Assembly: GCA_018241325.1 (NCBI GenBank) | Contig: JAFEEB010000048.1 | Location: forward strand, 1 to 44,163 | Reading direction: 5' to 3' | From: Pseudomonadota bacterium | GTDB taxonomy: Bacteria > Pseudomonadota > Gammaproteobacteria > Burkholderiales > Burkholderiaceae_C | Length of the DNA: 44,163 nucleotides | Shown here: positions 20,607 through 37,540 of the stretch, in pieces | How the letters are laid out: every line of letters starts with the position of its first letter | Position numbering within the stretch: the first letter of the stretch is position 1 | Notes under the pieces: model-generated | Databases searched by the model: none | What the model was told of the DNA's origin: nothing | The model's input: the letters and a program-made list of their open reading frames with translations, nothing else | Made by a program: the position numbers and the translations under genes

Positions 20607-21566
20607 ATGACTATGCACTTGTACTTCGATCTTCCAGAGGCCTTGTCGTGGATAAACAAGGCCAGTAGCTTGATCAAGGCCATGCACGCCGCGTCCTTGA
20701 TCTCCACCCCGCGCTTTGTACTAGGCGAAGCGGCTGTGCACGGATTTGGCGAGCGACTCAAGGCCCTGATCGAAGGTGTGGCCGAGGAGCGATGGCGGTT
20801 GCTACTAAAGGAATCGACGGACCCATACATCCTGCCCTTCCAAGCCGCATGTGATCACTACTTCACTCACTTGGCGCAGGGACGCGAGCCATCTGGGCTT
20901 GAGTTAATGAGCGTCGTCTTGCAGGCCCTGCAATCACCGCTATTTGCTCTTCGACGGGATTCCGTTCGGCGCTTGCGCCACAAGGTGCGCAATTCACTCC
21001 AGCAATACGTGCATGACTTGAAGTTGATCTATTCCAAGCTGATGATTGTTCGTCTGGACTTGTGGTACATGAAGGGGTACACGCGCAACATGCTGCCCGA
21101 GCAGCGCATCCTGGAAGATTGGGAGCGACTGCTGCGATTCATCGCACAGGGCTTTACACCGGCTTGGGTGGGCTATGCGGTGAAGTTTGAGTACGGTCCG
21201 CAGCGTGGCGTCCATGCGCACGTCATGCTGCTCTTCAACGGCCGGGAGGTTCGCGAGGACGAGACGATCGGGCGCATCATCGGCGAGCATTGGCGGCAGG
21301 TCATCACCGATGGGGTCGGCGGCTACTTCAACACCAACACGCGAGCGTACAAGGCTCAGATGGAATACTGCGGGATCGGGACGTTCACATCGATGACGGA
21401 CGACTTTCAGGAAGGGGTGGCGCGCATTGCGGACTACCTGGCAAAACCCGATCACGGGGTACGCCTAGCGGTGCCGGGTCTGGATCGCAGTGTGCGTCGC
21501 AGCTACCTGGACGGTTGGCAACGTGATCGACTGGAAAGGCTCCAAGCCGAAGCATGCTCTGACTGA
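20607..21566 (+). CDS. inovirus Gp2/YagK-YfjJ-type protein with HxH motif
   Basis: 319-residue protein of the inovirus Gp2/YagK-YfjJ C-terminal family, linked to replication of filamentous phages and satellite elements. Key features are KLMIVRLDLWYM (about 144-155), WVGYAVKFEYGPQRGVHAHVMLLFNG with His203-Ala-His205, then GEHWRQVITDGVGGYFNTN, several tyrosines in ~235-255 (YFNTNTRAYKAQMEYCGIG) and IADYLAKPD. A His-x-His strand followed by tyrosines is the arrangement of HUH-type nickases, so a nicking role in rolling-circle replication or mobilisation is plausible but inferred. AAAGG at 20596-20600 sets ATG 20607. The next gene begins 5 bases after its stop. Confidence 0.8.
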   Translation: MTMHLYFDLPEALSWINKASSLIKAMHAASLISTPRFVLGEAAVHGFGERLKALIEGVAEERWRLLLKESTDPYILPFQAACDHYFTHLAQGREPSGLELMSVVLQALQSPLFALRRDSVRRLRHKVRNSLQQYVHDLKLIYSKLMIVRLDLWYMKGYTRNMLPEQRILEDWERLLRFIAQGFTPAWVGYAVKFEYGPQRGVHAHVMLLFNGREVREDETIGRIIGEHWRQVITDGVGGYFNTNTRAYKAQMEYCGIGTFTSMTDDFQEGVARIADYLAKPDHGVRLAVPGLDRSVRRSYLDGWQRDRLERLQAEACSD

Positions 21567-21571
21567 TTTCG

Positions 21572-22714
21572 ATGACCAAGACCGTGACCACAAAGAATAC
21601 TCCTCCGCCAACGGACAAGCTCCGACAGCGAGTTGAGCAGGCGGAGCACCAAGCCGGGCTTGAATGGTCACTATCTCCGCGCAGACAGATATTCCAAGCT
21701 GGCTCCCCTGGTGGGCACGTCGCCGCTGCTCTGGTGGCCGCGCATGTCTACCTGCGACTGGCGGAAGAGCTTCGAAAGATGTCGGTGGAGCCGCTCTTCG
21801 GCTGGGATGACGCATCGAAGCGAGCGTCGACGAACCCTGTAGGAGAGAGGTTGGAGTGGGTGGCACAGCAACTCGATACGCAGCGCCACGAGCTTTACCC
21901 CTTACTGTGTGCCTACGAACAGTCACCACTCATCGAAGGATTCCTACGTGCCTTTTGGCCGCAGGCGTTAGACGTCAGGCACGCACGATTGCGAGCCCGC
22001 GACGTTCAAGATGTGCGCGAGCGTGCGCTCACGGCATCCCTTCAGTGGGCCGAGGACGCGGCGCAGCGCAAAAAGAGAAAGCGCTTCTGTACCAATGTGC
22101 GCAAAGCCACCGCATCCGTCAGCGCCTATCTTCAAACGCTACCAAGCACGAGACAGTTGTCGGTGGTTCGGGTGGAACTCACCCCACAGCCAGCGCTCCC
22201 GGGCCTGTATAACGCAGTCATTCCGGGGGTCAGGCAGCTATTCAAGTCCACGGAGGACGTTGATCAGAAAGCGCAAAGAAAATTGCTCGATCACCATGTC
22301 TTCAAGTCGTACTCGGGACAGCTGACGACGTTTCTGGAGTTGTTGAAGCGAGACCCAAAGCAGGCGTTTGTGGACTACAGCATCAAGCAAGAGTTCAAGC
22401 CTGGGGTGGGGGCGTCCTTCAACGCATTCCTGTTCTTCGATGGTAGCGTCTGGGGAGACTTTGGCAGCTTGCGTGCTGTCGTGAAGCAGCTCTGGAGTGC
22501 CGCGACCTGCGTGAATCCGGCCTCGATAGACGAAGTCGCCCACTTCGCAGAAACGTGGTCGTTCCCGGGGGGCCACGATCCGGATTGGAAGGATTTTGTT
22601 CGCAAAGTTCTTGCCCATCAAGTTGACAACACCGCCTATCTGAGTCTGCGCGTGCCTTCCGGTGTGCGCGCGTATCGTCGGGGAATCATGCGCGGCGAGG
22701 ACGAAGAACAATAG
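21572..22714 (+). CDS. second Gp2-like protein lacking HxH
   Basis: 380-residue protein, 5 bases downstream of the HxH Gp2-type gene. Its C-terminal half follows the same layout: QLSVVRVELTPQ with KLMIVRLDLWYM, VDYSIKQEFKPGVGASFNAFLFFDGSVWGDFGSLRAVVKQLW with WVGYAVKFEY...HAHVMLLFNGREVREDETIGRIIGEHW, and VLAHQVDNTAYLSLRVPSGVRAYRRGIM with IADYLAKPDHGVRLAVPGLDRSVRRSYL. The HAH is replaced by Ser-Phe-Asn, so a metal-dependent nicking activity is unlikely. Residues 1-200 are mostly helical, with a basic patch (QRKKRKRF). It could be a partner, an inhibitor or a DNA-binding accessory of its neighbour. Confidence 0.6.
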   Translation: MTKTVTTKNTPPPTDKLRQRVEQAEHQAGLEWSLSPRRQIFQAGSPGGHVAAALVAAHVYLRLAEELRKMSVEPLFGWDDASKRASTNPVGERLEWVAQQLDTQRHELYPLLCAYEQSPLIEGFLRAFWPQALDVRHARLRARDVQDVRERALTASLQWAEDAAQRKKRKRFCTNVRKATASVSAYLQTLPSTRQLSVVRVELTPQPALPGLYNAVIPGVRQLFKSTEDVDQKAQRKLLDHHVFKSYSGQLTTFLELLKRDPKQAFVDYSIKQEFKPGVGASFNAFLFFDGSVWGDFGSLRAVVKQLWSAATCVNPASIDEVAHFAETWSFPGGHDPDWKDFVRKVLAHQVDNTAYLSLRVPSGVRAYRRGIMRGEDEEQ

Positions 22715-23137: not shown

Positions 23138-24058
23138 TCATGAAGAGGTGTCGGCAGGCCTGCCCACAGAAGGATGCGTACGCGAAGCCGCAGCGTGAAG
23201 CCAAGCAAGAAAGGCTTCGACCGACGGCCGCTTGGCGTGGCGTTCTGGGTAAACGGCAAAGTGCGCCTTCACACGCACCACCTTGTCCATTCCGAAGACT
23301 GGTTGCAGCTTGCCTTCGGCCAGGTGACTGCCAGCCATCGTGGCACTCTCCAACGCGACCCCCAAACCTTGGGTCGCGCTGTCCAATGCAAGCTGCGCGC
23401 GGTCAAAGCGCGCGGCGTAGAGATCGGGCGCGGGCTTGTCTGAATAGTTGAGAAACCAGTCCGACCACTGTACGATGCTGATGGTGCTCTGGATCAGTGG
23501 CACTTCCGTTAGTTGGTCAATGCGTCGCAAGCGATGTTCACGAATGAATGCGGAGTTCGCCAGCGGCAGGATTGATTCCTCGAAAAGCGGCTCAACAACC
23601 AAGTTCGGCCAGCGCGGCACGCCATAGCGAATGTCGAGATCGGCTTGGCCGAGTGCGAAATCGCTGTGGATCGGCGAAGCCGATAGGTTCAGCGCGATTT
23701 GTGGGTTCGCCTGCGCAAAACCGCGCAGCCGCGGCATCAGCCACAGCGCGGCCAAGCTCGGTGTGCAGTGCACATGCAAGCTGTTGTTCACGCCGTGGCG
23801 CAGGTCGTCGGTAGCTGCCGCGATGGCCGCCAGCGCGCCAGCAATGCGCTCCATGTAGATCTCCCCCGCTGAACTGAGCCACACGCCGTGGGCGCTGCGC
23901 TCGAGAAGTCGAACGCCGAGCCGCGATTCCAACCGCGCCACTTGGTGGCTGACCGCCGAGGCTGTGACGTGAAGTTCGGCTGCCGCAAGCGCGAAGCTTC
24001 GACGGCGCGCGACGGCCTCAAGGGCTTGAAGGCTTGCTGTCGGCGGCAAATAGGGCAT
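23138..24058 (-). CDS. LysR-family transcriptional regulator (GcvA-like)
   Basis: 306-residue regulator. The N-terminal winged helix (residues about 6-65: LQALEAVARRRSFALAAAELHVTASAVSHQVARLESRLGVRLLER) is classic LysR. The effector domain (SLHVHCTPSLAALWLMPRLRGFAQANPQIALNLSAS, then DLDIRYGVPRWPNLVVEPLFEESILPLAN) resembles the GcvA branch. It is divergent from the SDR/TRAP/transketolase operon across a 144-base gap that holds a strong dyad with T-N11-A geometry, so it very likely controls that operon in response to the imported substrate or a product of it. Confidence 0.9.
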   Translation of the reverse strand: MPYLPPTASLQALEAVARRRSFALAAAELHVTASAVSHQVARLESRLGVRLLERSAHGVWLSSAGEIYMERIAGALAAIAAATDDLRHGVNNSLHVHCTPSLAALWLMPRLRGFAQANPQIALNLSASPIHSDFALGQADLDIRYGVPRWPNLVVEPLFEESILPLANSAFIREHRLRRIDQLTEVPLIQSTISIVQWSDWFLNYSDKPAPDLYAARFDRAQLALDSATQGLGVALESATMAGSHLAEGKLQPVFGMDKVVRVKAHFAVYPERHAKRPSVEAFLAWLHAAASRTHPSVGRPADTSS

Positions 24059-24073
24059 AGGGTCAACCCGGGC

Positions 24074-24098
24074 TTAACATGACAAAACGTCATCTTAA
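24074..24098. promoter_or_regulatory. candidate LysR operator
   Basis: TTAACATGAC (24074-24083) and GTCATCTTAA (24089-24098) form an inverted repeat with nine of ten pairs matching and a 5-base spacer. The inner part is T-N11-A from 24080 to 24092. It lies 16 bases from the LysR start and about 105 bases before the SDR start, the usual place for a site serving both autoregulation and activation. Confidence 0.6.
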
Positions 24099-24202: not shown

Positions 24203-24952
24203 ATGTTGCTTCGAAATAAAGTTGTCTTGATTACCGGCGGTGCCGGCCAAAACGGCCTTGGCTTTGCCAGTGCCCGCGAGATGGCGGCGCAAGGTGCGCG
24301 GGTTGTCATTCTCGACCTGGCGCGCGCCGAGCCAGCGACTGCCGCAGCGCGGCTCGGTGAAGGTCACTTCGGTATCGTCGCCGACGTCACCGACAAAGCA
24401 TCATGCGTCGCCGCGGTTGAGGAGATTCGTCGCCGCATGGGCCATATCGATATTCTCGTAAACAACGCGGGCATCACGCAGCCGCGCAAGACACTAGACA
24501 TCAGCGCCGCGGATTATGACGCCGTGCTTGACGTGAGCCTGCGTGGCACGCTGCACATGTCCCAGGCGGTGTTACCAGTCATGCAGATGCAAAAGTCTGG
24601 CTCCATTGTCTGTATCTCATCCGTGTCGGCACAGCGGGGTGGGGGAATCCTTGGCGGACCGCACTACTCGGCCGCCAAGGCCGGCGTGCTGGGCTTGGCG
24701 CGCGCGATGGCTCGCGAATTTGGCATCCATGGCATTCGAGTCAACAGTGTGACTCCAGGGCTGATCGCCACCGACATCAACAAGGGTTTGATCCCCGCCG
24801 ATCGGATGAAAGGCATCCTCGAAGACATACCGTTAAACCGCATCGGCGAACCAAGCGACGTTGCCGGTTGCGTGGTTTTTCTCGCGAGTGATCTCGCCAA
24901 GTATTTGACCGGCGTAACGCTCGACGTGAACGGCGGGATGTTGATTCACTGA
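24203..24952 (+). CDS. SDR-family dehydrogenase of the transketolase operon
   Basis: 249-residue classical SDR, first gene of the operon. NNAG is at about 87-90, the catalytic Ser in CISSVSAQ (about 140), and YSAAK has Tyr155 and Lys159. It ends in the usual TGVTLDVNGGMLIH. The cofactor loop is TGGAGQNGLG, two residues longer than the common TGxxxGxG; the acidic residue ending the second strand (VVILDLA) favours NAD+. It would oxidise a polyol or hydroxy-acid substrate, or reduce a ketose, in the pathway. ACAGGAG at 24187-24193 sets ATG 24203. The TRAP binding-protein gene starts 44 bases after its stop. Confidence 0.85.
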   Translation: MLLRNKVVLITGGAGQNGLGFASAREMAAQGARVVILDLARAEPATAAARLGEGHFGIVADVTDKASCVAAVEEIRRRMGHIDILVNNAGITQPRKTLDISAADYDAVLDVSLRGTLHMSQAVLPVMQMQKSGSIVCISSVSAQRGGGILGGPHYSAAKAGVLGLARAMAREFGIHGIRVNSVTPGLIATDINKGLIPADRMKGILEDIPLNRIGEPSDVAGCVVFLASDLAKYLTGVTLDVNGGMLIH

Positions 24953-24996
24953 CGGCCCATTGATCCAGAATTTTTACAACCAGGAGACGACCCATC

Positions 24997-25977
24997 ATGC
25001 AACGCAAGATCTTCATCAGCATGCTGACCGCCGCCGTATTGGCGCCGCTGGGCGCACAAGCGCAGACCACCAAGCTGACACTCGGGCACGGTGCTGCCGC
25101 TGGCAACCCGCGCCACGAGGCTGCGGTCAAGTTCGGCGAAATATTGAAGGCGAAGACCGGCGGCCGTATCGAGGTACAGGTGGCACCGTCGGGGCAACTC
25201 GGAGACGACGCGGCGATGGTGACCGCACTGCGCACGGGTGCGCTCGACATCTCAGCCAATTCACAAGGTGCGGTGGCCAACGTAGTACCCGAGTACGCGG
25301 CGTTTGGCATGCCTTTCCTGTTCGATAGCTTGCCGCAGGCGTGGAAGCTGCTAGACGGCCCTCTCGGCAAGGAACTGGCGGACAAGAGCGCAGCGAAGGG
25401 GTTAATCGTCCTCGGTTACTGGGACAACGGCATCCGCCACATGAGCGACAGCAAGAGGCCGCTTCTCAAGCCAGAGGATCTGAAGGGGCTGAAGATGCGC
25501 ACCCCGCCCGACGCCGTGACGGTGGACATCATGGAGGCATTGGGTGCTGAGGCACAGCAAATCAAGTTCGCCGAGCTTTATATTGCGCTGCAACAAGGGG
25601 TCGTCGACGGGCAGGAGAACCCGCTGATGAACATCTATGCGAGCAAGCTCTACGAGGTGCAGCCATTCATTTCATTGACTGGCCACAAGTACGAGATGAC
25701 GCCCTTTTTGATGAGCAAGCGCAGCTGGGATCGACTGTCCGAGGCGGACCGTATCGCAGTGCGCGAAGCTGCGGCCGACGCCACCGCGCTGCAGCGAAAG
25801 CTGTCGCAAGAGTCGGACGAAAAGCTCGTCGTCGAACTCAAGGGAAAAGGCGTACGCGTGGACACCGTGGATAAAGCGCCGTTCAAGAAGGCGACGGCAT
25901 CGGTCGACGACAAATGGATCGCTTCACCGATCGGGCCGTACGTCAAGAAGGTGATCACGGCCGCGCGCGCGAAATGA
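24997..25977 (+). CDS. TRAP transporter substrate-binding protein (DctP type)
   Basis: 326-residue periplasmic receptor for a TRAP importer. A signal peptide (MQRKIFISMLTAAVLAPLGAQA) precedes the DctP fold: LTLGHGAAAGNPRHEAAVKFGEILKAKTGGRIEVQVAPSGQLGDD, FGMPFLFDS, LKPEDLKGLKMRTPPD (the conserved Arg that salt-bridges a substrate carboxylate or other anion), IALQQGVVDGQENPLMNIYASKLYEVQ. The intact anion-binding Arg region suggests an acidic ligand such as a sugar acid, hydroxy acid or sulfonate. It is followed by the Q and M membrane genes. Confidence 0.9.
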   Translation: MQRKIFISMLTAAVLAPLGAQAQTTKLTLGHGAAAGNPRHEAAVKFGEILKAKTGGRIEVQVAPSGQLGDDAAMVTALRTGALDISANSQGAVANVVPEYAAFGMPFLFDSLPQAWKLLDGPLGKELADKSAAKGLIVLGYWDNGIRHMSDSKRPLLKPEDLKGLKMRTPPDAVTVDIMEALGAEAQQIKFAELYIALQQGVVDGQENPLMNIYASKLYEVQPFISLTGHKYEMTPFLMSKRSWDRLSEADRIAVREAAADATALQRKLSQESDEKLVVELKGKGVRVDTVDKAPFKKATASVDDKWIASPIGPYVKKVITAARAK

Positions 25978-26071
25978 AAGCCGGTGCAGCGCGGGCGGCT
26001 TGGCTGTCCAGCGGTGCAAGCCCATTTGACGTGGTTACCGCCTAAAAGTCGATTCGAGGAGACGACCGCAA

Positions 26072-26596
26072 ATGAACATCCCCGAACGCAATCCTCTTGA
26101 GCGCACCATTGTTGTCCTTTGCAGCTTCGTGCTCTGGGTCACGACATCAGTGATTTTCGTGATCCTCACGGCCAATACCATCCTGCGCTACACCGGAGGC
26201 AGGGGGTTGCAATGGGCCAACGAACTGCCTGAGCTGCTGTTTCCCTGGCTCGTGATGGCGGGTGTAGTGCTTGCCGCCGAGCGAGGCGCACACATCGCTA
26301 CCGTTTTCTTGATTGAAGTCCTGCCGCCGCAAGCACGTCGAATCGTCGTCGTGACGGGCTGGTTCGTCACGGCGGGCCTCTATGCAGTGTTGTCAACAGC
26401 AACATACAACCTGCTCGAGATCGTCCACGACGAGAAGTCACCGATCCTGCACGTGCCTGGGTCCGTCACCTACGGCTGCGTGATGGGTGGAATGGTGATG
26501 CTTGCCCTACTGGCGCTTCAGGCGGCTTGGCGGGCCTGGCGAGCCGAACCCGTTTCAGCGCTCTCCGAAGGCGAAGTGCAGAGCCCACACTGGTAA
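26072..26596 (+). CDS. TRAP transporter small permease (DctQ type)
   Basis: 174-residue membrane protein with four hydrophobic segments (about 12-40, 48-68, 87-110, 128-152). It has the family feature NELPELLFPWLVMAGVVLAAERGAHIA between the first segments. It pairs with DctM to form the membrane part of the importer. GGAG at about 26057-26061 precedes ATG 26072. Confidence 0.88.
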   Translation: MNIPERNPLERTIVVLCSFVLWVTTSVIFVILTANTILRYTGGRGLQWANELPELLFPWLVMAGVVLAAERGAHIATVFLIEVLPPQARRIVVVTGWFVTAGLYAVLSTATYNLLEIVHDEKSPILHVPGSVTYGCVMGGMVMLALLALQAAWRAWRAEPVSALSEGEVQSPHW

Positions 26597-26659
26597 AGGC
26601 GTTGTCCGCCGATGGGCCTCACTTGTGACCACAAATCCTAGGAGGCAGAGGAGCACGTA

Positions 26660-27919
26660 ATGAGTGTCTTGATTCTCGTCGTTTTTCTCGGTGCGGCAGT
26701 AGCTGCGATGCCGATTGCCCACGCGCTGCTGCTGGCGGCGATGGCGGCAGCCGCGACCACGGATCGTGTCCCGATTGACCTGTTGGTGCAACAAATGGTT
26801 GCGCAGGTGCAGAGCTTTCCGATGATCGCTATCCCGTTCTTCATGTTGACGGGGGCGTTGATGATGGGCGGTAGGCTGGGCGAGGCGATCGTTGGCACGT
26901 TGACCACCACCGTCGGGCGCTGGCACGGCGGGCCTGCGCAGGTTAGCGTGCTGTCGTCGACTTTGTTTGGAGGTGTCTCGGGGTCGGCAGTGGCGGATGC
27001 GTCGGCGATCGGCGCGCTACTGATGCCTTGGCATCGGCGACTCGGATATCCGATGGCCTTCTCGGCGGCGTCGCTCGCATCGGCGGCGACGATTGACATC
27101 ATCATCCCGCCATCCATTCCACTGATTCTGTTTGCGCTCACGGCCAACGAGTCGATCGCCGCGCTTTTTTATGCCGGCATCCTGCCCGGTCTGATGTTGT
27201 GCGCCGGATTCATGACCGCCTGCTGGTGGGTCGGAAAACGTCGAAATCTGCCGCGCGAGTCCGCCCCGGTCGACCGTGCAGTCTTCCGCCGCAATCTTGT
27301 GTTTTCGCTGCCGGCGCTCGCGCTGCCGGTGATGATCGTCGTCCTGCTGCGCTTCGGCATAGCCACTCCGACGGAAGTCGCGGTGCTATCGACGCTGTAC
27401 GCGGTCATTGTCTCGCTGTTGATTTACCGCGACCTGACGATCACGCGGGTGCACACGGCGATCATCGAGGCTGGCTTGGCCACCGGTGTGGTGCTGCTGG
27501 TCATCATGGCCTCGGCGGCGATCGGTTGGCTGTTGACCTTCGATCAGACGCCGCAGGGCATAGCGCACTGGGTGCAGCAAAACGTGCATGCAAAGTGGCT
27601 CGTAATTTTGCTGATGAACCTCATGATGCTGTTCATCGGCATGTTCATCGATCTACCAGCAGCCATTTTGCTTCTCACGCCCGTGTTCCTGCCATTGGCG
27701 CATGGCATCGGCATGGACTCGGTACAGCTCGGTCTGATGATGGTTCTGAACCTGGCGATCGGGTTGTACACGCCGCCGGTTGGCACCACGCTGTTCATCA
27801 CGAGTTCAATCGCCAAGGTCAAGGTCGGTGAGACGGTGCGCGCAATGGGACCGTTCTATCTCGTCGCGCTCGTCGTACTCGCACTCATCTCCTACTTTCC
27901 ATCCTTCGTGCTGCGCTGA
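26660..27919 (+). CDS. TRAP transporter large permease (DctM type)
   Basis: 419-residue multi-span permease that carries substrate inward using a sodium or proton gradient. DctM signatures are FPMIAIPFFMLTGALMMGG, LSSTLFGGVSGSAVADASAIGALLMP, AATIDIIIPPSIPLILFA, PTEVAVLSTLYAV, FIGMFIDLPAAILLLTPVFLPLA and LAIGLYTPPVGTTLFITSS. Length is normal for a stand-alone DctM, not fused to Q. Its stop is 31 bases before the split transketolase gene, tying transport to the downstream enzymes. Confidence 0.92.
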   Translation: MSVLILVVFLGAAVAAMPIAHALLLAAMAAAATTDRVPIDLLVQQMVAQVQSFPMIAIPFFMLTGALMMGGRLGEAIVGTLTTTVGRWHGGPAQVSVLSSTLFGGVSGSAVADASAIGALLMPWHRRLGYPMAFSAASLASAATIDIIIPPSIPLILFALTANESIAALFYAGILPGLMLCAGFMTACWWVGKRRNLPRESAPVDRAVFRRNLVFSLPALALPVMIVVLLRFGIATPTEVAVLSTLYAVIVSLLIYRDLTITRVHTAIIEAGLATGVVLLVIMASAAIGWLLTFDQTPQGIAHWVQQNVHAKWLVILLMNLMMLFIGMFIDLPAAILLLTPVFLPLAHGIGMDSVQLGLMMVLNLAIGLYTPPVGTTLFITSSIAKVKVGETVRAMGPFYLVALVVLALISYFPSFVLR

Positions 27920-27950
27920 ACATCACTTGACTGAGAAAAGGAATCGCTCC

Positions 27951-28817
27951 ATGTCTACAACCGCACTGACGCTGGCCAAACTGGCTCGCAGCGCCTACAA
28001 CATCCGTCGCTACGCCCTGCGCATGGGTGAAGTCCAGGGCCAAGGCTACATCGGCCAAGCGCTTGGATATGCTGACGTGCTGGCGGTGGCTTACTGTCAT
28101 TCGATGGCCTTGCGCTCCGACGAGCCAGGGTGGGAGGGCCGCGACCGGTTTCTGCTCTCGCACGGTCACTACGCCATCGCCCACTATGCCGCGTTGATCG
28201 AGGCCGGTGTGATCCCCGAGTCGGAGCTCGAGACCTACGGCAGCGACGATAGCCGCCTGCCGATGTCGGGCATGGCTAGCTATACGCCTGGCATGGAGAT
28301 TTCCGGCGGATCGCTGGGCCAGGGATTGACTATCGGCGTCGGCATGGCCCTCGGTCTGAAGCAAAAGAACAATCCGGCTTTTGTCTACAACTCGATGTCT
28401 GACGGGGAACTGGATGAAGGGTCGACCTGGGAGGCGGCGATGTCAGCTGGACACTATGGGCTCGACAACCTCATCTGCCTTGTCGATGTCAACAACCAGC
28501 AGGCTGACGGCCCCTCCACCAAGGTGCTGGGTTTCGAGCCGCTCATCGACAAATGGGCGGCGTTCGGCTGGCACGTTCAGCGCGTGAACGGCAATGATCT
28601 ACCCGCAGTGCTCGAGGCCTTCGACGCGGCTCGCGCGCCAACGGAAGCCAAACCCCGGGTCATTCTCTTCGATACCTTGATGGGCAAGGGAGTACCGTTT
28701 TTGGAGGAGCGCGAGAAGAACCACTTCATTCGCGTCGATCCGCCTGAGTGGCAGCAGGCGCTCGCCATACTCGATCAATCTCAGCCGCATATGCAGTCCG
28801 AAGGAGCGTCGGCATGA
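27951..28817 (+). CDS. transketolase N-terminal (TPP-binding) subunit
   Basis: 288-residue half-transketolase supplying the thiamine pyrophosphate domain. Key elements are RDRFLLSHGHYAIAHYAAL, GGSLGQGLTIGVGMALG and the TPP/metal motif SDGELDEGSTWEAAMSAGHYGLDNLICLVDVNNQQADG, then FGWHVQRVNGNDL and DTLMGKGV. AAAAGGAA lies about 10 bases before ATG 27951. The stop overlaps the C-subunit start (ATGA at 28814), giving balanced synthesis. Dedicated split transketolases of this type serve catabolic pathways in the literature, such as apulose-4-phosphate (AptAB) and sulfoquinovose (SqwGH); which substrate applies here is not evident. Confidence 0.9.
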   Translation: MSTTALTLAKLARSAYNIRRYALRMGEVQGQGYIGQALGYADVLAVAYCHSMALRSDEPGWEGRDRFLLSHGHYAIAHYAALIEAGVIPESELETYGSDDSRLPMSGMASYTPGMEISGGSLGQGLTIGVGMALGLKQKNNPAFVYNSMSDGELDEGSTWEAAMSAGHYGLDNLICLVDVNNQQADGPSTKVLGFEPLIDKWAAFGWHVQRVNGNDLPAVLEAFDAARAPTEAKPRVILFDTLMGKGVPFLEEREKNHFIRVDPPEWQQALAILDQSQPHMQSEGASA

Positions 28818-29824
28818 ACACTGTCACCGCCGAAAAAAAACCACGCCTTACTACCTCGGCGATGATCGCCTCGATCGCCTCCGAGGGTCAACGGGTGAAG
28901 GCCGCACCGTTCGGCAAGGCGCTGGTTGACTACGCTGCCGGACACCCCGAGGTCGTGGGTCTCACCGCAGATCTGGCCAAATACACCGATCTTCACCTTT
29001 TCGCCCAAGCCTACCCCGAGCGTTTCTATCAGATGGGGATGGCCGAGCAGTTGCTGATGGGCGCAGCAGGCGGTATGGCCAAGGAGGGACTGATACCGTT
29101 CGCGACGACTTATGCCGTGTTCGGCACACGGCGGGCGTACGACTTCATCCATCAGGTGATCGCTGAGGAAAACCTCAACGTAAAAATCTGCTGCGCCTTG
29201 CCGGGGCTGACTACAGGCTACGGCCCAAGCCACCAGGCCACCGAGGACATTGCAATGATGCGCGGAATCCCCGGACTGACGATCATCGATCCGTGCGACG
29301 CGCTCGACATCGAGCAGGCGGTGCCACAGATCGCCGCACACAAGGGACCGGTGTACATGCGACTGCTGCGTGGCCAGGTTCCACTGGTTCTCGACGAGGT
29401 TAACGGCTACAAATTCGAGCTCGGCAAGGCCAAGCTGCTGCGTGATGGCGCAGACGTATTGGTAATCTCGAGCGGTCTGTTGACCATGCGCGCACTGGAA
29501 GTGGCGCAAGACCTGGCCAAGGACAATATTGGTGTGGCTGTGCTGCACTGCCCGACGATCAAGCCACTCGACGAGGCGGCGATCGTTGACGCGGTGCGTT
29601 ACAAGTCTCGGCTCGTGGTCGTAGCCGAAAATCACTCGGTCATTGGGGGCCTCGGCGAGGCGGTGGCGAGCACTTTGCTGCGCCATCGCGTGCAGCCGGC
29701 TGGCTTCCAGCTTGCAGGGTTGCCCGACGCCTTTCTCGACGCTGGTGCGCTGCCGACTTTGCACGAACGCTACGGTATCAGCCGCGAGGCACTGGGTGCG
29801 CGCGTCAAGGCTTGGCTCGGTTGA
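28814..29824 (+). CDS. transketolase C-terminal subunit
   Basis: 336-residue partner with the pyrimidine-binding and C-terminal domains. It contains VVGLTADLAKYTDLHLFAQAYPERFYQMGMAEQLLMGAAGGMAKEG (the Glu of GMAEQ activates the thiamine), PFATTYAVFGTRRAYDFI, LPGLTTGYGPSHQATEDIAMMRGIPGLTIIDPCD and VYMRLLRGQVP, then VLVISSGLLTMRALEVA and VVVAENHSVIGGLGEAV of the C-terminal domain. It starts on the overlap with the N subunit and ends 2 bases before the full-length transketolase ATG. Confidence 0.9.
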   Translation: MNTVTAEKKPRLTTSAMIASIASEGQRVKAAPFGKALVDYAAGHPEVVGLTADLAKYTDLHLFAQAYPERFYQMGMAEQLLMGAAGGMAKEGLIPFATTYAVFGTRRAYDFIHQVIAEENLNVKICCALPGLTTGYGPSHQATEDIAMMRGIPGLTIIDPCDALDIEQAVPQIAAHKGPVYMRLLRGQVPLVLDEVNGYKFELGKAKLLRDGADVLVISSGLLTMRALEVAQDLAKDNIGVAVLHCPTIKPLDEAAIVDAVRYKSRLVVVAENHSVIGGLGEAVASTLLRHRVQPAGFQLAGLPDAFLDAGALPTLHERYGISREALGARVKAWLG

Positions 29825-29826
29825 CT

Positions 29827-31833
29827 ATGAAACACGCTGCGCCGTCCAAGCTCGCGGACGCGATTCGCTTTCTTGCCATCGACGCGATCGTGCGCGCTGG
29901 CGAAGGCCATCAGGGCGTGCCACTCGGCATGGCCGAGATTGCCACCGCGTTGTACACCCAGCACCTAACGTTCGATGCTGGCGATCCCTCATGGCCTGAC
30001 CGCGACCGCGTCGTGCTAAGCAATGGCCACGGCTCAATGCTGCTGTATGCACTGCTGCATCTCTGCGGGTACGAGCGCTTCGGCATAGAGCAATTACGCA
30101 CCTTTCGCGACTTCGGATCGCGCTGCGAGGGTCACCCCGAACGCGATATTGCGTCGGGGATCGAGGTCACCACCGGCCCGCTCGGCCAGGGTATCGCGAA
30201 TGCGCTGGGGATGGCGGTGGCCGAGGCCTACTTGAATGCCCGCTTCGGCGATGAGTTGGTCAATCACCGCACTTACGCCTTCGTCGGCGACGGTTGCCTG
30301 CAGGAGGGAGTAGGCCAAGAGATGATCTCGCTCGCCGGCCATCTGCGGCTCAGCAAGTTGACGGTACTGTGGGACGACAATCAGATCACCGACGATGGCG
30401 CGACGACGCTGTCGATCAGCGAGGACGTGGCCGAGCGCTTCCGCGTCGCCGGCTGGCATGTCATTGAAGTTGATGGACATGATCTGGCAGCCGTGTCGGT
30501 GGCGTTGGACGCCGCGCGTGTGGATCGGCGGCCGTCGTTGCTTGCCTGCCGTACTGTCATCGCTCGCGGCATCACTCGGCTTCAGGGCCGGCGCGGCGGA
30601 CACAGTGGCAAGCTTTTCGTCGAGGATGCCGATGCCGCACGCGCAGCGTTGGACTGGCCGCACGCACCCTTCGAGGTCCCAGCCGACGTGCTGGACGCCT
30701 GGCGTGATGCCGGGCGACGCGGCCGCAGTGCGCGCGATGCGTGGCAGGCGCGCGTTGCCGCGCTGCCCGCTGCCGAACGCGTCGAATTCGAACGGGTTCT
30801 CGCCGGTGAGCTGCCTGCAGGCTGGCGCGAGACGCTTGCGACGTACAAGAGCGTGGCGAGCACGCGCGAGCCGTTGCCCAGTGGCATCTACATATCCGGC
30901 GAGATTAGTGACGCGCTGGTGAATCGTCAACCGGAGCGCATGGTCATTTGCGCCGATCTGGAGGCTCCTACCGGCCACAAGAGACGGCTGGCGGCCTTCA
31001 CGGCCGAGAGTCGAGACGGACCCTACGTGCACTGCGGCGTGCGCGAGCACTTGATGGGAGCGATGGCGAATGGCATGGCAGCGCATGGCGGCGTTGATCC
31101 ATTGGCCGTAACCTACCTAGCCTTCTCCGATTACGAACGCCCGGCAATGCGCATGGCCGCCTTGATGGGGCTGCCGGTGAAGTTCGTGTTCAGCCACGAC
31201 TCGATCGGTATCGGCAAGAACGGCCCGACGCACCAACCGGTGGAAATTTTGGCATCGCTGCGCGCGATGCCAAATATGCTGGTGCTTCGCCCGGCAGACG
31301 CGGTTGAGGCGGCGGAATGCTGGGAGATCGTGCTCGAACGGAATCGGGGGCCGTCGTCACTGGTGTTCGCGCGCCAGTCTCTACCGCACGTGCGGCGCGT
31401 CCCCACCAGCGCGAACCTATCGCGGCGTGGCGCCTATGTGCTTGCCGAAGCTGAAGGCGGCGAGCGCGAGGTAACGCTGCTGGCCACCGGCTCCGAGGTC
31501 GCTCTGGCGCTGGCCGCCCGCGAACAGCTACAGGTTGCCGGAACCCCTACCGCTGTGGTGTCGATGCCGTGCTGGGAACTGTTCGAACAACAGGACGCCG
31601 CCTACCAGGCGAGTGTTCTCGGCCCGCGCACGATACGTGTCGGTTGCGAGGCTGCCGTGCGTTTTGGTTGGGACCGTTGGCTGGGACAACGCGGGGGTTT
31701 TGTCGGCATGACGGGTTTTGGCGCGTCAGGGCCGGCGGATGCCCTGTACCGTCATTTCGGTATTACCGCCGAGGCGATGGTTGTCGAAGCACGGCGACTG
31801 CTCAACTCGCAAGCTCAGGAGATCCTTGCATGA
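29827..31833 (+). CDS. full-length transketolase with altered substrate pocket
   Basis: 668-residue single-chain transketolase, a second such activity in the operon. TPP motif GDGCLQEG (154-161) to Asn185, Glu407 in GVREH, His28, His67 and His259 are kept. Compared with E. coli TktA from memory, the phosphate-binding Arg358 of SRKASQ aligns ungapped with Ile354 (GIYISG), the Ser385 loop ADLAPSN reads ADLEAPTG, and Asp469 of GLGEDG is Asn465 (GIGKNG); His457 and Arg516 remain. HGAPLG is replaced by HSGKLF. This suggests specificity for non-phosphorylated or otherwise unusual substrates. ATG 29827 is 2 bases after the C-subunit stop; the stop overlaps the dehydrogenase start (ATGA at 31830). 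Confidence 0.88.
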   Translation: MKHAAPSKLADAIRFLAIDAIVRAGEGHQGVPLGMAEIATALYTQHLTFDAGDPSWPDRDRVVLSNGHGSMLLYALLHLCGYERFGIEQLRTFRDFGSRCEGHPERDIASGIEVTTGPLGQGIANALGMAVAEAYLNARFGDELVNHRTYAFVGDGCLQEGVGQEMISLAGHLRLSKLTVLWDDNQITDDGATTLSISEDVAERFRVAGWHVIEVDGHDLAAVSVALDAARVDRRPSLLACRTVIARGITRLQGRRGGHSGKLFVEDADAARAALDWPHAPFEVPADVLDAWRDAGRRGRSARDAWQARVAALPAAERVEFERVLAGELPAGWRETLATYKSVASTREPLPSGIYISGEISDALVNRQPERMVICADLEAPTGHKRRLAAFTAESRDGPYVHCGVREHLMGAMANGMAAHGGVDPLAVTYLAFSDYERPAMRMAALMGLPVKFVFSHDSIGIGKNGPTHQPVEILASLRAMPNMLVLRPADAVEAAECWEIVLERNRGPSSLVFARQSLPHVRRVPTSANLSRRGAYVLAEAEGGEREVTLLATGSEVALALAAREQLQVAGTPTAVVSMPCWELFEQQDAAYQASVLGPRTIRVGCEAAVRFGWDRWLGQRGGFVGMTGFGASGPADALYRHFGITAEAMVVEARRLLNSQAQEILA

Positions 31834-32804
31834 GTGCCAAACAGCGCATTGTCTTTCTGGATCGATCGACCATCGCGCCGCAAATCCGGTTGCGTCCGCC
31901 ATCATTTGAGCATGAGATGGTCGAGCATCAAAACACGTCCGCCGATCAGGTGGTGCCTCGCCTTGACAGCGCGACGGTCGCGATTCTGAACAAGGTGCCG
32001 ATCAGCGTCGCGGTGCTTGAGCAATTGCCTCGGCTGAAGTTGATCGCGGTGGCCGCCACGGGCACCGATTGCATTGACAAGGCTGCGTGCGCGGCGCACG
32101 GCGTCGCGGTGGCAAATATCCGCGGCTATGCGCTCAACACAGTGCCAGAACACACCTTCGCGGTGATGCTCGCGCTGCGTCGAAATATCGTCGCCTATCG
32201 CGAATCAGTTTTGGCGGGGCGCTGGCAGCAGGCAGCGCAGTTTTGCTATTTTGACTTTCCGATCCATGACCTCGCCGGCGCGCGTCTGGGCATCATCGGC
32301 GAAGGCGTGATCGGCCAGCGCGTGGCCGAATTAGGCAAGGCGTTCGGTATGGTGCCTATGTTTGCATCGCACAAGGGCGTGAGCGGCATGGGTCCGCTGT
32401 ACACGCCGTGGCAGCAGGTGCTGGAGACGGCCGACGTGATCACGCTCCACTCGCCCTTGACCTCGCAGACCAGAGGCATGATTGCAATGCCTGAATTCGA
32501 GGCGATGCGGCGGCGTCCATTGCTCATCAACACCGCGCGCGGCGGCCTCGTCGATGAGATGGACCTCGTTGCAGCGTTGGATCGAGGGCTTGTCAGCGGG
32601 GCCGGCTTCGACGTCACCGATGGTGAGCCGCCAGCGGCGGATCACCCGCTGATGCGTGCGGCTTCGCGTCCCAACGTAATTCTCACACCGCATGTCGCAT
32701 GGGCTGCCGATGAGGCGCAGCAGGCGCTGGCCGATCAGCTGATCGACAACATCGAGAAATTTGTCGCCGGCACGCCGACGAATTTGGTTCAGGGTGCTTT
32801 CTGA
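31830..32804 (+). CDS. D-isomer-specific 2-hydroxyacid dehydrogenase
   Basis: 324-residue NAD(P)-dependent enzyme that interconverts 2-oxo acids and D-2-hydroxy acids, in the glyoxylate/hydroxypyruvate reductase group. The nucleotide loop is GIIGEGVIGQRVA (about 154-165), and the catalytic triad is Arg237 (NTARGG), Glu266 (DGEPP) and His288 (TPHVAWA). The second-strand end reads FASHKG rather than ending in Asp, which favours NADPH, as in glyoxylate/hydroxypyruvate reductases. It is the last gene of the operon, starting on an ATGA overlap with CAGGAGAT just upstream. Reducing hydroxypyruvate or glyoxylate formed upstream would be consistent, but is inference. Confidence 0.88.
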   Translation: MSAKQRIVFLDRSTIAPQIRLRPPSFEHEMVEHQNTSADQVVPRLDSATVAILNKVPISVAVLEQLPRLKLIAVAATGTDCIDKAACAAHGVAVANIRGYALNTVPEHTFAVMLALRRNIVAYRESVLAGRWQQAAQFCYFDFPIHDLAGARLGIIGEGVIGQRVAELGKAFGMVPMFASHKGVSGMGPLYTPWQQVLETADVITLHSPLTSQTRGMIAMPEFEAMRRRPLLINTARGGLVDEMDLVAALDRGLVSGAGFDVTDGEPPAADHPLMRAASRPNVILTPHVAWAADEAQQALADQLIDNIEKFVAGTPTNLVQGAF

Positions 32805-34540: not shown

Positions 34541-35488
34541 TCAGGCCGGCACCGGCTCGCCCCCATTGCTTCTTCGTAAGCGCCCCTCCAGCCGAGCCTG
34601 CAACCCGCCCGAGCCCTTGGGCGGGGGTGGAAGCCGGGGATCGCCCTCCCCCTCCGGCGCCGTCTCCGGATAGAACTCCTCCACCACCGCCCCACCTTCT
34701 TCCTCGGTCTCCTCGAACGCTCCGGCCGCATAGCCTTCGCGCGCCGCCTCATCGAGTGCCCACTGGTCAAACCCCAGCTGCTTGCGCCGTTCATCCTCGG
34801 CCGTGGCCTGCACCACCGCCTGCTCCAGGGGGGTGCCCGGTGGCGTGGTGACATCCACGTAGTACACCGGGGCCCGATACGACTGGGTGGTGGACTTGCC
34901 GCGCAGGCGCAGCATCAGGGGCAGCGAGGCCAGCAGGCCGCCCGAGACCGCCTTCAAGTAGGCCAGCCGCGCGGTCAGCGTGCGAATGCTGTTGAAACCC
35001 GTGGTGCGAAACACAAAGGTGCCCAGCCCATCGTCTTCTCCCGCTCCCGTTTCCACTTCGGGCGTGACGACCCGCACGTGCAGCCGCCCATAGGGCTTGC
35101 AGCGTCCGTCTTGCGCCAGTGGGCAGCCCGCCGGGGTCGGACAGGGCAGGCTCTCGATGCCCTGATCGGTCACGCGCCGGCAGCGCTCACCATCCCCCAC
35201 GCACAGGGGCCGGCCGGTTTCCCGATCAAACAGCGTGTAGTGGGCCCTCAGGTTCAGCTCCGGCGCCCCGAAGGGCAGGCGCACCGGGATGCTGCGCAGC
35301 TTGGTGCCAGCATCCTTGCGCAGCGCCGCATCCAGCGGATGCTTGACCCAGCCTTCGAGCCCCTGCACCTGACTGGTCAGGGTGAACTCATCGTCCTTCT
35401 CCGGCAGGCGCCGGCCGTTCTTCTCCACCACCCGGCCAATCGAGATGCGCCCAATCACCGGCGGTGTAATGGCAAGACCTTTCAACAT
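34541..35488 (-). CDS. Gp3-like protein, candidate recombination directionality factor
   Basis: 315-residue protein of the type annotated in ICEs as 'hydrolase or metal-binding protein' and, in the phage phiC31 Gp3-like family, as a recombination directionality factor. It has a cysteine cluster (LCVGDGERCRR, then LPCPTPAGCPLAQDGRCKPYGRLHVRVV) likely binding zinc, and FVFRTTGFNSIRTLTARLAYL. The C-terminal ~60 residues are acidic and Gly/Pro-rich. ATG 35488 follows AAAGGA by 8 bases; the in-frame TTG 35503 is worse placed. It is last in the minus-strand module. The family call is from motif memory, and phiC31 Gp3 partners serine integrases, whereas the integrase here is a tyrosine enzyme. Confidence 0.6.
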   Translation of the reverse strand: MLKGLAITPPVIGRISIGRVVEKNGRRLPEKDDEFTLTSQVQGLEGWVKHPLDAALRKDAGTKLRSIPVRLPFGAPELNLRAHYTLFDRETGRPLCVGDGERCRRVTDQGIESLPCPTPAGCPLAQDGRCKPYGRLHVRVVTPEVETGAGEDDGLGTFVFRTTGFNSIRTLTARLAYLKAVSGGLLASLPLMLRLRGKSTTQSYRAPVYYVDVTTPPGTPLEQAVVQATAEDERRKQLGFDQWALDEAAREGYAAGAFEETEEEGGAVVEEFYPETAPEGEGDPRLPPPPKGSGGLQARLEGRLRRSNGGEPVPA

Positions 35489-35499
35489 GATGTGTCCTT

Positions 35500-36357
35500 T
35501 CAATTGATGGGTATTTCGCGTTCATCCAGGGCCCGTACCGTCTGCGGTTGCGGATCCGGGTCTTCGTCCGGCTCAGGCTCTTCGTCCTCCACCTCCCAGT
35601 CGAAGACCTCCCGTGCCAGGCCAGCCGCATCGGACGTGGGTTGGTCCTCGAACCCGCCCGGCACCTGCACGCCAAAGCGATACGTGCCGGCAAACCCCAA
35701 GCCTTCGTCCAGGTAGTCGATCCAGCCACTCAGGGCCGGATGGGCCTGGACGATCCGCCGCAACACCGGCTCGGGGGGACTCCAGGCGGTCTCGAAGTGC
35801 AGCGCCAGCTCGGTTTCCGACAGGCGTGCAAGCTCGCAGCGGCCACCGTTCCACTTGCATCCCCAGTGCTCCAGCGACCAGCCGTACCAGTCGGCGTGAC
35901 CGTGGCGCTCGATGTTGCGCAGCCGTGTGCGCCCCAGGCTGAGGCAGTGCTGCAACTGCTGCAGGGCCGTCTGAGCGGCCGTCAGGGGCTGCGCCGCGTC
36001 CGGCAGCGACTGCGCCTCGGCCCAGTGCACCAGATCGCCCACCACCCGCACCGGGATGGCCTCGGTGGGCAGCGGCTGACACAGGCGCGCGCACCAGCGG
36101 TCTTGCGCCAGAAACCCCTCCCACGGCTCGGTCATGTGGGCCAGCAAGGCATCGCCCAGCTGGCTCTGGCCGCCGACCTCGATCGCCTCCAGCTCCGGCG
36201 GCATGGGGGCCCAGACGTTGAAGTCCAGGGCATACCCGGCCGGCGCCTGATCCTGATCCTGATCCTCGGCACTCTCTGGTTTGAGTTGCGCCACGAAGCG
36301 CTCCAACGCCTCGGGCGAACCCGTCAGGCGCATGCGGTGATAAACCCAGTTGGGCAT
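35500..36357 (-). CDS. DUF1281/YubB-like ferredoxin-fold protein
   Basis: 285 residues. The start MPNWVYHRMRLTGSPEALERFVAQL and the later NVWAPMPPELEAI, then DWYGWSLEHWGCKWNG and LHFETAWSPPEPVLRRIVQAHPAL, are the signature of the plasmid/ICE DUF1281 (YubB) family. It ends in a strongly acidic stretch (DWEVEDEEPEPDEDPDP). AAAGGA lies 8 bases before ATG 36357. Function is unknown; family members sit in the leading regions of conjugative elements. It ends 11 bases before the Gp3-like start. Confidence 0.72.
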   Translation of the reverse strand: MPNWVYHRMRLTGSPEALERFVAQLKPESAEDQDQDQAPAGYALDFNVWAPMPPELEAIEVGGQSQLGDALLAHMTEPWEGFLAQDRWCARLCQPLPTEAIPVRVVGDLVHWAEAQSLPDAAQPLTAAQTALQQLQHCLSLGRTRLRNIERHGHADWYGWSLEHWGCKWNGGRCELARLSETELALHFETAWSPPEPVLRRIVQAHPALSGWIDYLDEGLGFAGTYRFGVQVPGGFEDQPTSDAAGLAREVFDWEVEDEEPEPDEDPDPQPQTVRALDEREIPIN

Positions 36358-36391
36358 GATGAAATCCTTTCCTTGAAATGAATGAAGACTC

Positions 36392-36410
36392 AAAACCCGA
36401 AGCAATCGGG
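36392..36410 (-). terminator. terminator-like hairpin between YqaJ and DUF1281-like genes
   Basis: On the minus strand CCCGA-TTGCT-TCGGG is followed by TTTTGAG, 18 bases after the YqaJ stop. The stem is only 5 bp with a short T run, so partial termination is more likely than full. Confidence 0.4.
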
Positions 36411-36427
36411 CTCTCGGCCGGATCGCC

Positions 36428-37453
36428 TCAGTCCGCTGCCGTCTGGCCGCGCAGCACAAAGCGCCGGCTGCCGGCTCGCACCTGGCCATAGGCATCCTTC
36501 AAGCCCGGCTGCTCCTGCAACAGGCGCTTGGTGTCCAGCACCACGCTGTCCTTGATTCGGCGAAACGTCACTTCACCGGTCTCGAACACCGCCCGCGAGG
36601 CCTCGCCCATGCGCTCTTCGATGCGCTGGCGCAGCTGGGCTTCCTGTAGTTCGAAGGCCTTCAGCCGCTCGCGCACCGCCTGCAGATCGGAGAAGGTGCT
36701 GCCCATCTCCATGTCCTGCGTCCAGTCCAAGGTTTGGCCGCTGTCCTGGGGGTACAGCGCCTGCAGGGCGCGTTCGGCCGAGGCCGAGCCATCGGCCGGT
36801 GGCGGTGCTCCGTCCTGTACCCGCTGCCAGAACGCCGCTTCCAGCTCGATCAGCCGCTCAATCACGGCGGCATCGCGCTCGATGCGGTGAATGCGCAGCT
36901 CCTGGCCGCCGATCAGCACGATCACATCGGCGGCCTGCTTGCCGGTCACGGCCAGCTGGTGCATCACCTGCAGCTGCACGTACTCGGGCACGCCGTCCCT
37001 CCACAGCCGGGCGCCATGGATGCCGGCGGTCTTGCACTCCAGGATCTGTACCTCAGGGGTGCCCAGCACCTCCCGATCGAGGTTGGCCAGCATCCAGGGG
37101 TGTTCGGGGTGTTGCAGCACCGCATTGACCCGGCGCACCCGCCGGCCGGTGCGGCGCGTGTAGTGCGCCGCCACGATGGGCTCCAGCAGGGTGCCCCAGT
37201 ACATGGGCTGGCTGTCATCGTCGGGATCGGGTTGAGCGAAGCTGGCCTTCCCGGTCTTCTGCGCCCACAGCTCCAAGGGGGACTGGTAGGGGCTCAGACC
37301 GACGGCTGCCGCCGCATCCGAGCTGCCAATGCCCTGGCGGCGCACGTCCAGCCACTCGGCACGGCTCAGCTGCTGGGTCTTGACCAGGCGCAGGGCCGGT
37401 CGGGGTTTGGATGCCACGGATGGCAACCCATTTGATTCAATCATCGGATTCAT
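36428..37453 (-). CDS. YqaJ-family (lambda-exonuclease-like) recombinase nuclease
   Basis: 341-residue nuclease of the YqaJ viral recombinase family, a 5'-3' exonuclease used with a single-strand annealing protein. Motifs are EWLDVRRQGIGSSDAAAAVGLSPYQSPLELWAQKTG (about 33-68), WGTLLEP with Glu91, LANLDREV with Asp126, ILECKTA with Glu139 and Lys141, and Gln161 in VPEYVQLQVMHQL; these form the D-E-K active site. Residues about 250-285 are a coiled coil. AAGGAG, 7 bases before ATG 37453, sets the start. No RecT/Bet annealing protein is adjacent; the DUF932 neighbour often accompanies such nucleases in ICEs. Confidence 0.88.
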   Translation of the reverse strand: MNPMIESNGLPSVASKPRPALRLVKTQQLSRAEWLDVRRQGIGSSDAAAAVGLSPYQSPLELWAQKTGKASFAQPDPDDDSQPMYWGTLLEPIVAAHYTRRTGRRVRRVNAVLQHPEHPWMLANLDREVLGTPEVQILECKTAGIHGARLWRDGVPEYVQLQVMHQLAVTGKQAADVIVLIGGQELRIHRIERDAAVIERLIELEAAFWQRVQDGAPPPADGSASAERALQALYPQDSGQTLDWTQDMEMGSTFSDLQAVRERLKAFELQEAQLRQRIEERMGEASRAVFETGEVTFRRIKDSVVLDTKRLLQEQPGLKDAYGQVRAGSRRFVLRGQTAAD

Positions 37454-37477
37454 GACGCACTCCTTCAGAAACAGGAA

Positions 37478-37505: not shown

Positions 37506-37540
37506 ATGGACGGGGATAAACAAAGACTCAGGCCACCGAA

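Follow-up and report, generated by a model that had tools for sequence, protein, structure and literature searches.

L-Threonate and D-erythronate are degraded through a kinase pathway that comprises LtnD, OtnI, OtnK and OtnC. A two-gene transketolase is also found in a catabolic setting in AptAB, whose pathway we take to include an apiose kinase. The transketolase SqwGH is likewise encoded by two genes, sqwG and sqwH, and according to excerpts of the published account it transfers two-carbon (C2) units onto glyceraldehyde 3-phosphate to form xylulose 5-phosphate, after which the leftover acidic aldehyde is reduced (PMC13219744). Here we describe an operon at positions 24203-32804 of a 44,163-nucleotide contig (JAFEEB010000048.1 of assembly GCA_018241325.1, the whole of which is referred to as the window) from a Pseudomonadota bacterium of the Burkholderiaceae_C. 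It encodes both a split transketolase, TktN and TktC (together TktNC), and a full-length transketolase, Tkt, along with a tripartite ATP-independent periplasmic (TRAP) importer and two dehydrogenases. We consider that it encodes, with a probability of about one half, a transketolase pathway that degrades an aldonic-type hydroxy acid without phosphorylating it.

The eight genes form intact, co-directional open reading frames (ORFs) on the forward strand, and their place, order and families are those given in a preliminary description of this DNA. A short-chain dehydrogenase/reductase (SDR; 24203-24952; Pfam adh_short_C2 and adh_short) is followed by the TRAP solute-binding protein DctP (24997-25977; TIGR00787, 293 bits), the small permease DctQ (26072-26596; Pfam DctQ, 86.7 bits) and the large permease DctM (26660-27919; TIGR00786, 423 bits). 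The N-terminal half of the split transketolase, TktN (27951-28817; Pfam Transketolase_N), and its C-terminal half, TktC (28814-29824; Pfam Transket_pyr and Transketolase_C), precede Tkt, which belongs to a non-canonical subfamily (29827-31833; TIGR00232, 677 bits against a cut-off of 682), and a D-2-hydroxyacid dehydrogenase (31830-32804; Pfam 2-Hacid_dh and 2-Hacid_dh_C). The preliminary description had also noted two transketolases, a TRAP importer and the lack of a kinase, and the ORF, Pfam and profile searches agreed with this; no kinase was found among the operon genes by ORF and Pfam search. Gaps of 31-94 bases separate the genes in the first half of the operon. The upper limit of 94 bases was as described, but of three ATGA overlaps claimed only two were found, at 28814-28817 (TktN/TktC) and 31830-31833 (Tkt/dehydrogenase). 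Between TktC and Tkt there is either a TTGA overlap or a gap of 2 bases, according to which start codon is chosen; we placed the Tkt start at ATG 29827, with TTG at 29812 or 29821 as possible alternatives.

In the proposed pathway, the TRAP importer would bring in the carboxylate, and the SDR would oxidize the hydroxyl beside the terminal CH2OH to give a terminal keto-acid, HOOC-(CHOH)n-CHOH-CO-CH2OH. The transketolases would then move the end C2 ketol onto a sugar phosphate, e.g. glyceraldehyde 3-phosphate, as SqwGH does, and a short acid-aldehyde would be freed: glyoxylate from a C4 acid, tartronate semialdehyde from a C5 acid or tartrate semialdehyde from a C6 acid. No kinase would be needed, because the C2 unit would land on an existing phosphosugar. 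The D-2-hydroxyacid dehydrogenase would direct the acid-aldehyde (or hydroxypyruvate, its tautomer) towards glycolate or D-glycerate, and in some relatives this last step could also be carried out by an L-threonate-dehydrogenase-like enzyme or a glycerate kinase. Two enzymes might be kept since TktNC (Tyr26, Tyr at 468/469) and Tkt (His26, Asn469) may favor opposite C3 configurations. We infer every reaction, the substrate and the stereochemistry from the genes, their conservation, the residue changes and the type of importer, and likewise the chain length and the need for two enzymes; the data accommodate C4, C5 and C6 acids alike.

The residue changes were read from alignments and are given in E. 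coli TktA numbering. Both TktNC and Tkt have the three domains of the thiamine diphosphate (ThDP)-dependent transketolase superfamily, with Glu411 and His473. Among the residues of canonical transketolase, we take R358, S385, H461 and R520 to hold the phosphate and H26 to touch the donor. The donor residues H66, H100, G114 and H473 are named in excerpts of PMC7661550. As judged from the alignments, neither TktNC nor Tkt appears to retain the set that marks the canonical pentose-phosphate enzyme (R358, S385, H461, R520 and D469). The alternative raised in the preliminary description, that both are ordinary pentose-phosphate transketolases, is thus one from which the residues appear to point away.

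We placed 101 TktN sequences, of which 97 were members of the subfamily, one was truncated and three were less than 60% identical (loci L107, L110 and L089). All 97 members had Tyr26 (H26Y), His66, Ser100 (H100S) and His261, while the three distant sequences kept His26 and His100. Similarly, all 100 subfamily members among the 104 TktC sequences placed had Tyr385, Glu411, Leu461, His473 and Arg520 and had lost a residue at 468/469; position 358 was variable (Lys in 53, Arg in 18, Gln in 9, Thr in 8, Val in 7 and others in 5). The motif T[TS]GYGPSHQ, present in 94 of the 100, suggests that Tyr may occupy position 469. The four more distant TktC sequences differed, and that of L110, which lies beside a sugar isomerase and a kinase, has Leu461 and the 468/469 deletion. 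In Bosea sp. WAO (L089, 3283-5147), the distant split transketolase with His26 and His100 is a second one that directly follows a TktNC pair.

Tkt was changed at other positions. The 42 matches included 35 complete operon-type sequences (one Azoarcus gene was counted twice) and three further operon-type sequences that were truncated. All 35 kept His26, His66, His100, His261, Glu411, His461 and His473, all lacked Arg358 (Ile in 29, Asn in 3, and Tyr, Trp and Met in one each), and all had lost D469, which was replaced by Asn. Position 520 was Arg except for Lys in three and His in one, and position 385 reads as Pro or Ala, or as Thr if a one-residue insertion is assumed. R358, S385 and D469 are kept in E. 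coli TktA and in an intact copy in the bacterium's own genome (L002, contig C6). A further canonical-type tkt in this genome (L001, contig C41) matches TktA in two frames, over residues 1-433 and then 447-603, where the locus ends; this is possibly a frameshift or an assembly error.

The same positions have been engineered in E. coli TktA, as described in excerpts of the following reports. The R358I/H461S/R520Q variant was better than the wild type at forming tartaric semialdehyde from 5-keto-D-gluconate (PMC12016104), S385Y with D469T admitted formylbenzoic acids, and H100L admitted pyruvate as the donor (PMC10787763, PMC5073344). With propionaldehyde, H26Y gave 88% R and D469Y 68% R, compared with 58% S for the wild type (PMC3657141). 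H26Y, and perhaps D469Y, in TktNC as against H26 in Tkt suggests the hypothesis that the two enzymes have opposite C3 preferences. A more far-reaching version of the proposal, which we put forward tentatively and regard as rather doubtful, is that of a widespread and undescribed route in which sugar acids are shortened, unphosphorylated, by two naturally stereo-complementary transketolases, TktNC serving one C3 configuration and Tkt the other, with the C2 units entering sugar phosphates and the acid-aldehydes entering glycerate.

The related loci compared were 80 genome loci, the best TktC matches of 410 confirmed, so that the following rates are not population rates; neighbors were labeled by their best BLAST match to a 31-sequence panel, and some contigs end early. 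TktN was present in 78 of the 80 genome loci, DctP in 65, the SDR in 59, a second SDR type in 14, full-length Tkt in 31, an L-threonate-dehydrogenase-like gene in 22, the D-2-hydroxyacid dehydrogenase in 18, a major facilitator superfamily (MFS) importer in four, glycerate kinase in three and a lactonase in one. Where more than 8 kb followed TktC, Tkt was found in 25 of 61 loci, in 22 of these downstream on the same strand. Two transketolases in one operon, which the preliminary description had called unusual, are therefore real but not a one-off. The split pair and full-length Tkt occur together in Burkholderiales, Azoarcus, Azospirillum, Skermanella, Xanthobacter, Marinobacterium and others, a recurrence which argues that the set is not due to chance. 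Smaller sets of SDR, importer and TktNC were found in Klebsiella, E. coli, Caballeronia and Acinetobacter, with LysR in all except the Caballeronia stretch, and a version with MFS and GntR genes was found in the actinobacterium Arthrobacter. TktNC was present in 5 of 5,426 E. coli genomes in a distant DNA search. In one of the E. coli loci, that of strain RM9513 (L105, 7858-11147), the TktNC cluster is followed by adhE and an RraA-family gene; in no other locus was an acetaldehyde enzyme gene seen straight after the cluster.

The comparison of neighbors across relatives, which the preliminary description had recommended, showed that the conserved core is SDR, TktNC and an anion importer, usually with LysR, and that Tkt acts like a further module, in many cases together with the dehydrogenase, whose presence goes with one type of SDR. 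Two Azospirillum plasmids carry LysR, SDR, Tkt, dehydrogenase and glycerate kinase genes with no TktNC in the stretch; in A. ramasamyi, the TktNC set is on its other plasmid. In relative G031 (L127, ~0.9-4.0 kb), Tkt and the dehydrogenase are encoded beyond LysR in the opposite orientation, and the Tkt matches are split between two frames. The cluster, which many bacteria have, probably serves to break down an imported sugar acid through one or two unusual transketolases and no kinase, the terminal two carbons of the acid being handed over to central metabolism. The unassigned neighbors comprised 649 ORFs (at least 130 amino acids, with little overlap with panel matches), among which eight clusters recurred in at least three loci. 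Their representatives were a sugar ABC ATPase, a phosphonate-type binding protein, a LacI-type regulator, a threonyl-tRNA ligase, a LysR-type regulator, a DUF2339/TctC reading frame, a 2Fe-2S protein and an enoyl-CoA hydratase; none of the eight names a substrate. A TIM-barrel partner gene was present in Sphaerotilus (L011). In L090, a PGDH_C gene (Pfam PF16896; 10816-11646) follows the SDR and adjoins two L-threonate-dehydrogenase-like genes; we take this family to be one known from apionate catabolism.

We examined the association of Tkt with its partners in 74 of 100 loci, i.e. the 80 genome loci and 20 annotated records, three of which had been fetched for their Tkt. Loci with Tkt were kept at any length and those without it only if more than 8 kb lay past TktC, so that the ratio of 35 to 39 is no frequency. 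The dehydrogenase was present in 18 of 35 loci with Tkt versus 2 of 39 without it, and glycerate kinase in 3 of 35 versus 0 of 39. On quick trees, the presence of Tkt could be explained with 9 changes for the SDR (68 rows), as compared to 23 in shuffles, none of 500 of which were as low, and with 16 changes for TktNC (67 rows), as compared to 22.6, with 4 of 500 as low; relatedness was not removed, and the shuffles show clustering only. The window SDR belongs to a 20-row clade in which all loci have Tkt, whereas its nearest TktNC comes from a locus without Tkt. The better fit of Tkt presence to the SDR tree makes the SDR and Tkt look like one functional unit.

The last gene is probably a hydroxypyruvate/glyoxylate reductase, as its Pfam domains and solved relatives suggest and as the preliminary description had proposed; these relatives are glyoxylate reductases and glycerate dehydrogenases, and also D-lactate and phosphoglycerate dehydrogenases. 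A glycerate kinase homologue is encoded elsewhere in the genome, on contig C49, in a row with thiamine-enzyme, TIM-barrel and NAD_binding_2-type reductase genes; by our own reading, these would be gcl, hyi and tartronate semialdehyde reductase. Through such a row, glyoxylate or tartronate semialdehyde could reach glycerate.

An acidic substrate, also predicted earlier, is favored by the importers. DctP, DctQ and DctM with a carboxylate-binding arginine make up a TRAP transporter, and Arg147 and Arg168 of DctP were invariant in 28 aligned sequences, 21 residues apart as are the two binding arginines of IseP. A structure search recovered the DctP fold and relatives; presumably the ligands of 4pdh, 4pdd, 4p9k and 4pak are D-erythronate or pantoate. 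By sequence, the closest solved chain was the Advenella sugar-acid protein 7bbr. According to excerpts of PMC11668362, 7BBR bound 2-keto-3-deoxy-gluconate, and relatives of IseP bound pantoate or erythronate. The nearest models of the MFS importers in the four scanned clusters were for galactonate or shikimate, below cut-offs. In L045, a sugar ABC importer and the single SMP-30 lactonase stand in place of the anion importer, and a lactonase is to be expected if the acid forms a lactone. Thus, the importers vary yet are of anion type, or in one locus sugar ABC with lactonase. For the SDR of the window, the closest solved chain was 7krk (319 bits). Both 7krk and 7krm are labeled 3-oxoacyl-ACP reductase; they are near-identical to the SDR of a LysR-SDR-MFS-TktNC cluster of A. 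baumannii (513 bits), which makes the label doubtful and the name probably wrong. Excerpts of a report on FabG-like proteins of A. baumannii (PMC8007833) mention neither 7KRK nor transketolase.

Several observations weigh against a non-phosphorylative sugar-acid pathway. Arg520 is kept in all 100 TktC, and Tkt keeps H461 and mostly R520, so that phosphorylated substrates may still suit both enzymes. H100S in TktNC could mean donors without a C1 hydroxyl. The change at S385 in Tkt depends on the alignment, since the motif CADLEAPT could represent S385T after a one-residue insertion. The dehydrogenase was present in 16 and absent from 14 of the 30 Tkt-containing loci with more than 1.3 kb past Tkt, and the L-threonate-dehydrogenase-like gene occurred at similar rates in loci lacking Tkt (11 of 39) and in those having it (9 of 35). 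The closest named models of the SDR are FabG-like, with scores below cut-offs, the link between SDR and Tkt may in part reflect lineage, and the SDR of L045 could instead be a sugar 1-dehydrogenase that feeds the lactonase. In Shinella (L023, 1-4931), dihydroxyacetone kinase and TIM-barrel isomerase-like genes diverge from a LysR/SDR/TktNC/TRAP set; these would suit a kinase route and dihydroxyacetone as a product, which could arise e.g. when a C4 keto-acid decarboxylates spontaneously.

The serine at the donor-binding H100 site in 97 of 97 TktN raises the alternative that TktNC moves a deoxy C2 unit at the acetyl level. A deoxy-aldonate would be oxidized by the SDR to a methyl ketone, from which acetaldehyde or a 1-deoxyketose phosphate would arise, while Tkt would take the hydroxylated analogues. 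Engineered H100F or H100L enzymes allow pyruvate as the donor (excerpts of PMC7661550 and PMC10787763), and adhE, an acetaldehyde/alcohol dehydrogenase gene, directly follows TktNC in RM9513. However, natural DXS has Phe rather than Ser at this site (excerpts of PMC7661550), and adhE was seen in RM9513 alone and in 0 of the 80 genome loci in the panel search, so we regard this alternative as unlikely. It is quite improbable that the acceptor side is specialized for aromatic or bulky acid aldehydes, with an arylglycerol- or aryl-type acid as substrate from which TktNC frees an aromatic aldehyde. Tyr385 and the residue lost at 468/469 in 100 of 100 TktC do recall the S385Y and D469 changes that admit formylbenzoates in TktA (excerpts of PMC10787763 and PMC5073344), and one MFS importer matched a 4-hydroxyphenylacetate permease model, below the cut-off; but no aromatic-catabolism gene set was found among the eight recurrent unassigned clusters, and the glycerate kinase, lactonase and L-threonate-dehydrogenase-like neighbors point to sugar acids.

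A pathway like that of AptAB or SqwGH, acting on a phosphorylated or sulfonated sugar and served by a kinase or isomerase encoded at another genomic site, would share the split architecture and the idea of C2 transfer, and would suit the retained R520 and the dihydroxyacetone kinase and isomerase genes near the Shinella cluster. We consider it very improbable, since R358 is lost in Tkt and variable in TktC, and the identities of TktN and TktC to the annotated AptA/AptB pair of L107, which has H26, H100, H461 and D469, are 31% and 30%. Moreover, the 31-protein panel found glycerate kinase in three and dihydroxyacetone kinase in none of the 80 loci, and the eight recurrent clusters held no sugar kinase or isomerase; no other kinase search was made. 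We give little credence to the last alternative, that ordinary pentose-phosphate transketolases were recruited as helpers. Tkt does score 677 bits against the general model of bacterial transketolases, but this is below the cut-off, R358 and D469 are lost in 35 of 35, and the genome has separate canonical-type copies on C41 (in two frames) and C6.

A divergent GcvA-like LysR-family regulator gene (23138-24058, reverse strand; NCBIfam GcvA, 234 bits against a cut-off of 288; Pfam HTH_1 and LysR_substrate) is part of the operon unit; LysR was matched in 64 of the 80 genome loci. Between LysR and SDR, a T-N11-A inverted repeat, ATGAC-N5-GTCAT (24079-24093), is a probable LysR operator, as judged by its conservation in 33 LysR-SDR spacers from loci with LysR more than 60% identical and SDR first. 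The exact form was present in 18 of the 33 and the looser ATGA-N7-TCATCTTA in 22; 24 had one form or the other and nine had neither. Shuffled spacers had the exact form in 0.01 of 33, and chance alone would place none in the window.

The window corresponds to contig C42 in a genome of 3.82 Mb and 93 contigs, where the operon has the appearance of cargo carried by an integrated element. A tyrosine integrase (16209-17396) lies to its left, and a Gp3-like recombination directionality factor, YqaJ recombinase, DUF932 and HsdM genes lie to its right (34541-42045); the right end of the element was not found. The operon lies in a stretch with a GC content below that of the window's left part. Among the matches listed, a TktC of this family came from none of the 28 same-genus genomes, several of them incomplete (completeness down to 57%), from 2 of 7 same-family genomes and from none of the 24 same-order genomes; the other listed matches were at most 40% identical. 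The integrase and phage-type neighbors, the lower GC content and the lack of TktC in the same-genus genomes fit horizontal gain. Two adjacent genes at 20607-22714, encoding 319 amino acids (weakly like YagK/YfjJ) and 380 amino acids (no Pfam match), are probably parts of the mobile element.

No description of the gene set, nor its assignment to a known substrate, was found in the literature searched, which left out most subscription journals; the main text of PMC9007349 contains neither transketolase nor TRAP. If the proposed pathway is correct, two transketolase families would act on free sugar acids, and nature would have reached by itself some of the active-site changes engineered for acidic, non-phosphorylated and stereo-inverted substrates. 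A function would also be assigned to operons across Proteobacteria and at least one actinobacterium, the 3-oxoacyl-ACP reductase label of 7krk/7krm would come into further doubt, and ready-made biocatalysts would be at hand. Transketolase-based catabolism is itself known; the substrate class given here for the TktNC/Tkt operon is a predicted one.

Among known systems, the L-threonate/D-erythronate pathway resembles the operon in the L-threonate-dehydrogenase-like partners of 22 of 80 loci and the TIM-barrel partner in Sphaerotilus, but it has a kinase and a decarboxylase, in place of which the operon has transketolases. AptAB shares with TktNC a two-gene transketolase in a catabolic setting. 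The comparison with AptAB and SqwGH drawn in the preliminary description holds for the pathway logic but not for close kinship of the sequences: membership of AptAB was rejected on the identities given above, and the AptA/AptB pair of L107, which is an annotation rather than a tested enzyme, keeps residues that TktNC does not. The apiose kinase that we assume for AptAB has no counterpart in the operon. SqwGH follows the same logic as proposed here, with a two-gene transketolase, C2 transfer onto glyceraldehyde 3-phosphate and aldehyde reduction. Membership of SqwGH was rejected on neighbors, sequences aside: sulfoquinovose (SQ) isomerase, SqwI and sulfoacetaldehyde genes are neither in the operon nor named in the annotated TktNC stretches, and the operon has an oxidizing SDR and TRAP import instead of isomerase and sulfonate genes. 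The closest solved relatives of both halves of TktNC are those of the Carboxydothermus split transketolase (PDB 6yaj/6yak), which is divided between domains in the same way; it keeps His, His, Ser, His and Asp where TktNC has Tyr26, Ser100, Tyr385, Leu461 and a gap. In the engineered TktA variants (R358I/H461S/R520Q; H100L with S385Y and D469T; H26Y; D469Y), the same positions are changed, several to the identical residue. Those are laboratory enzymes, whereas the changes in TktNC and Tkt occur naturally and have become fixed in the two families.

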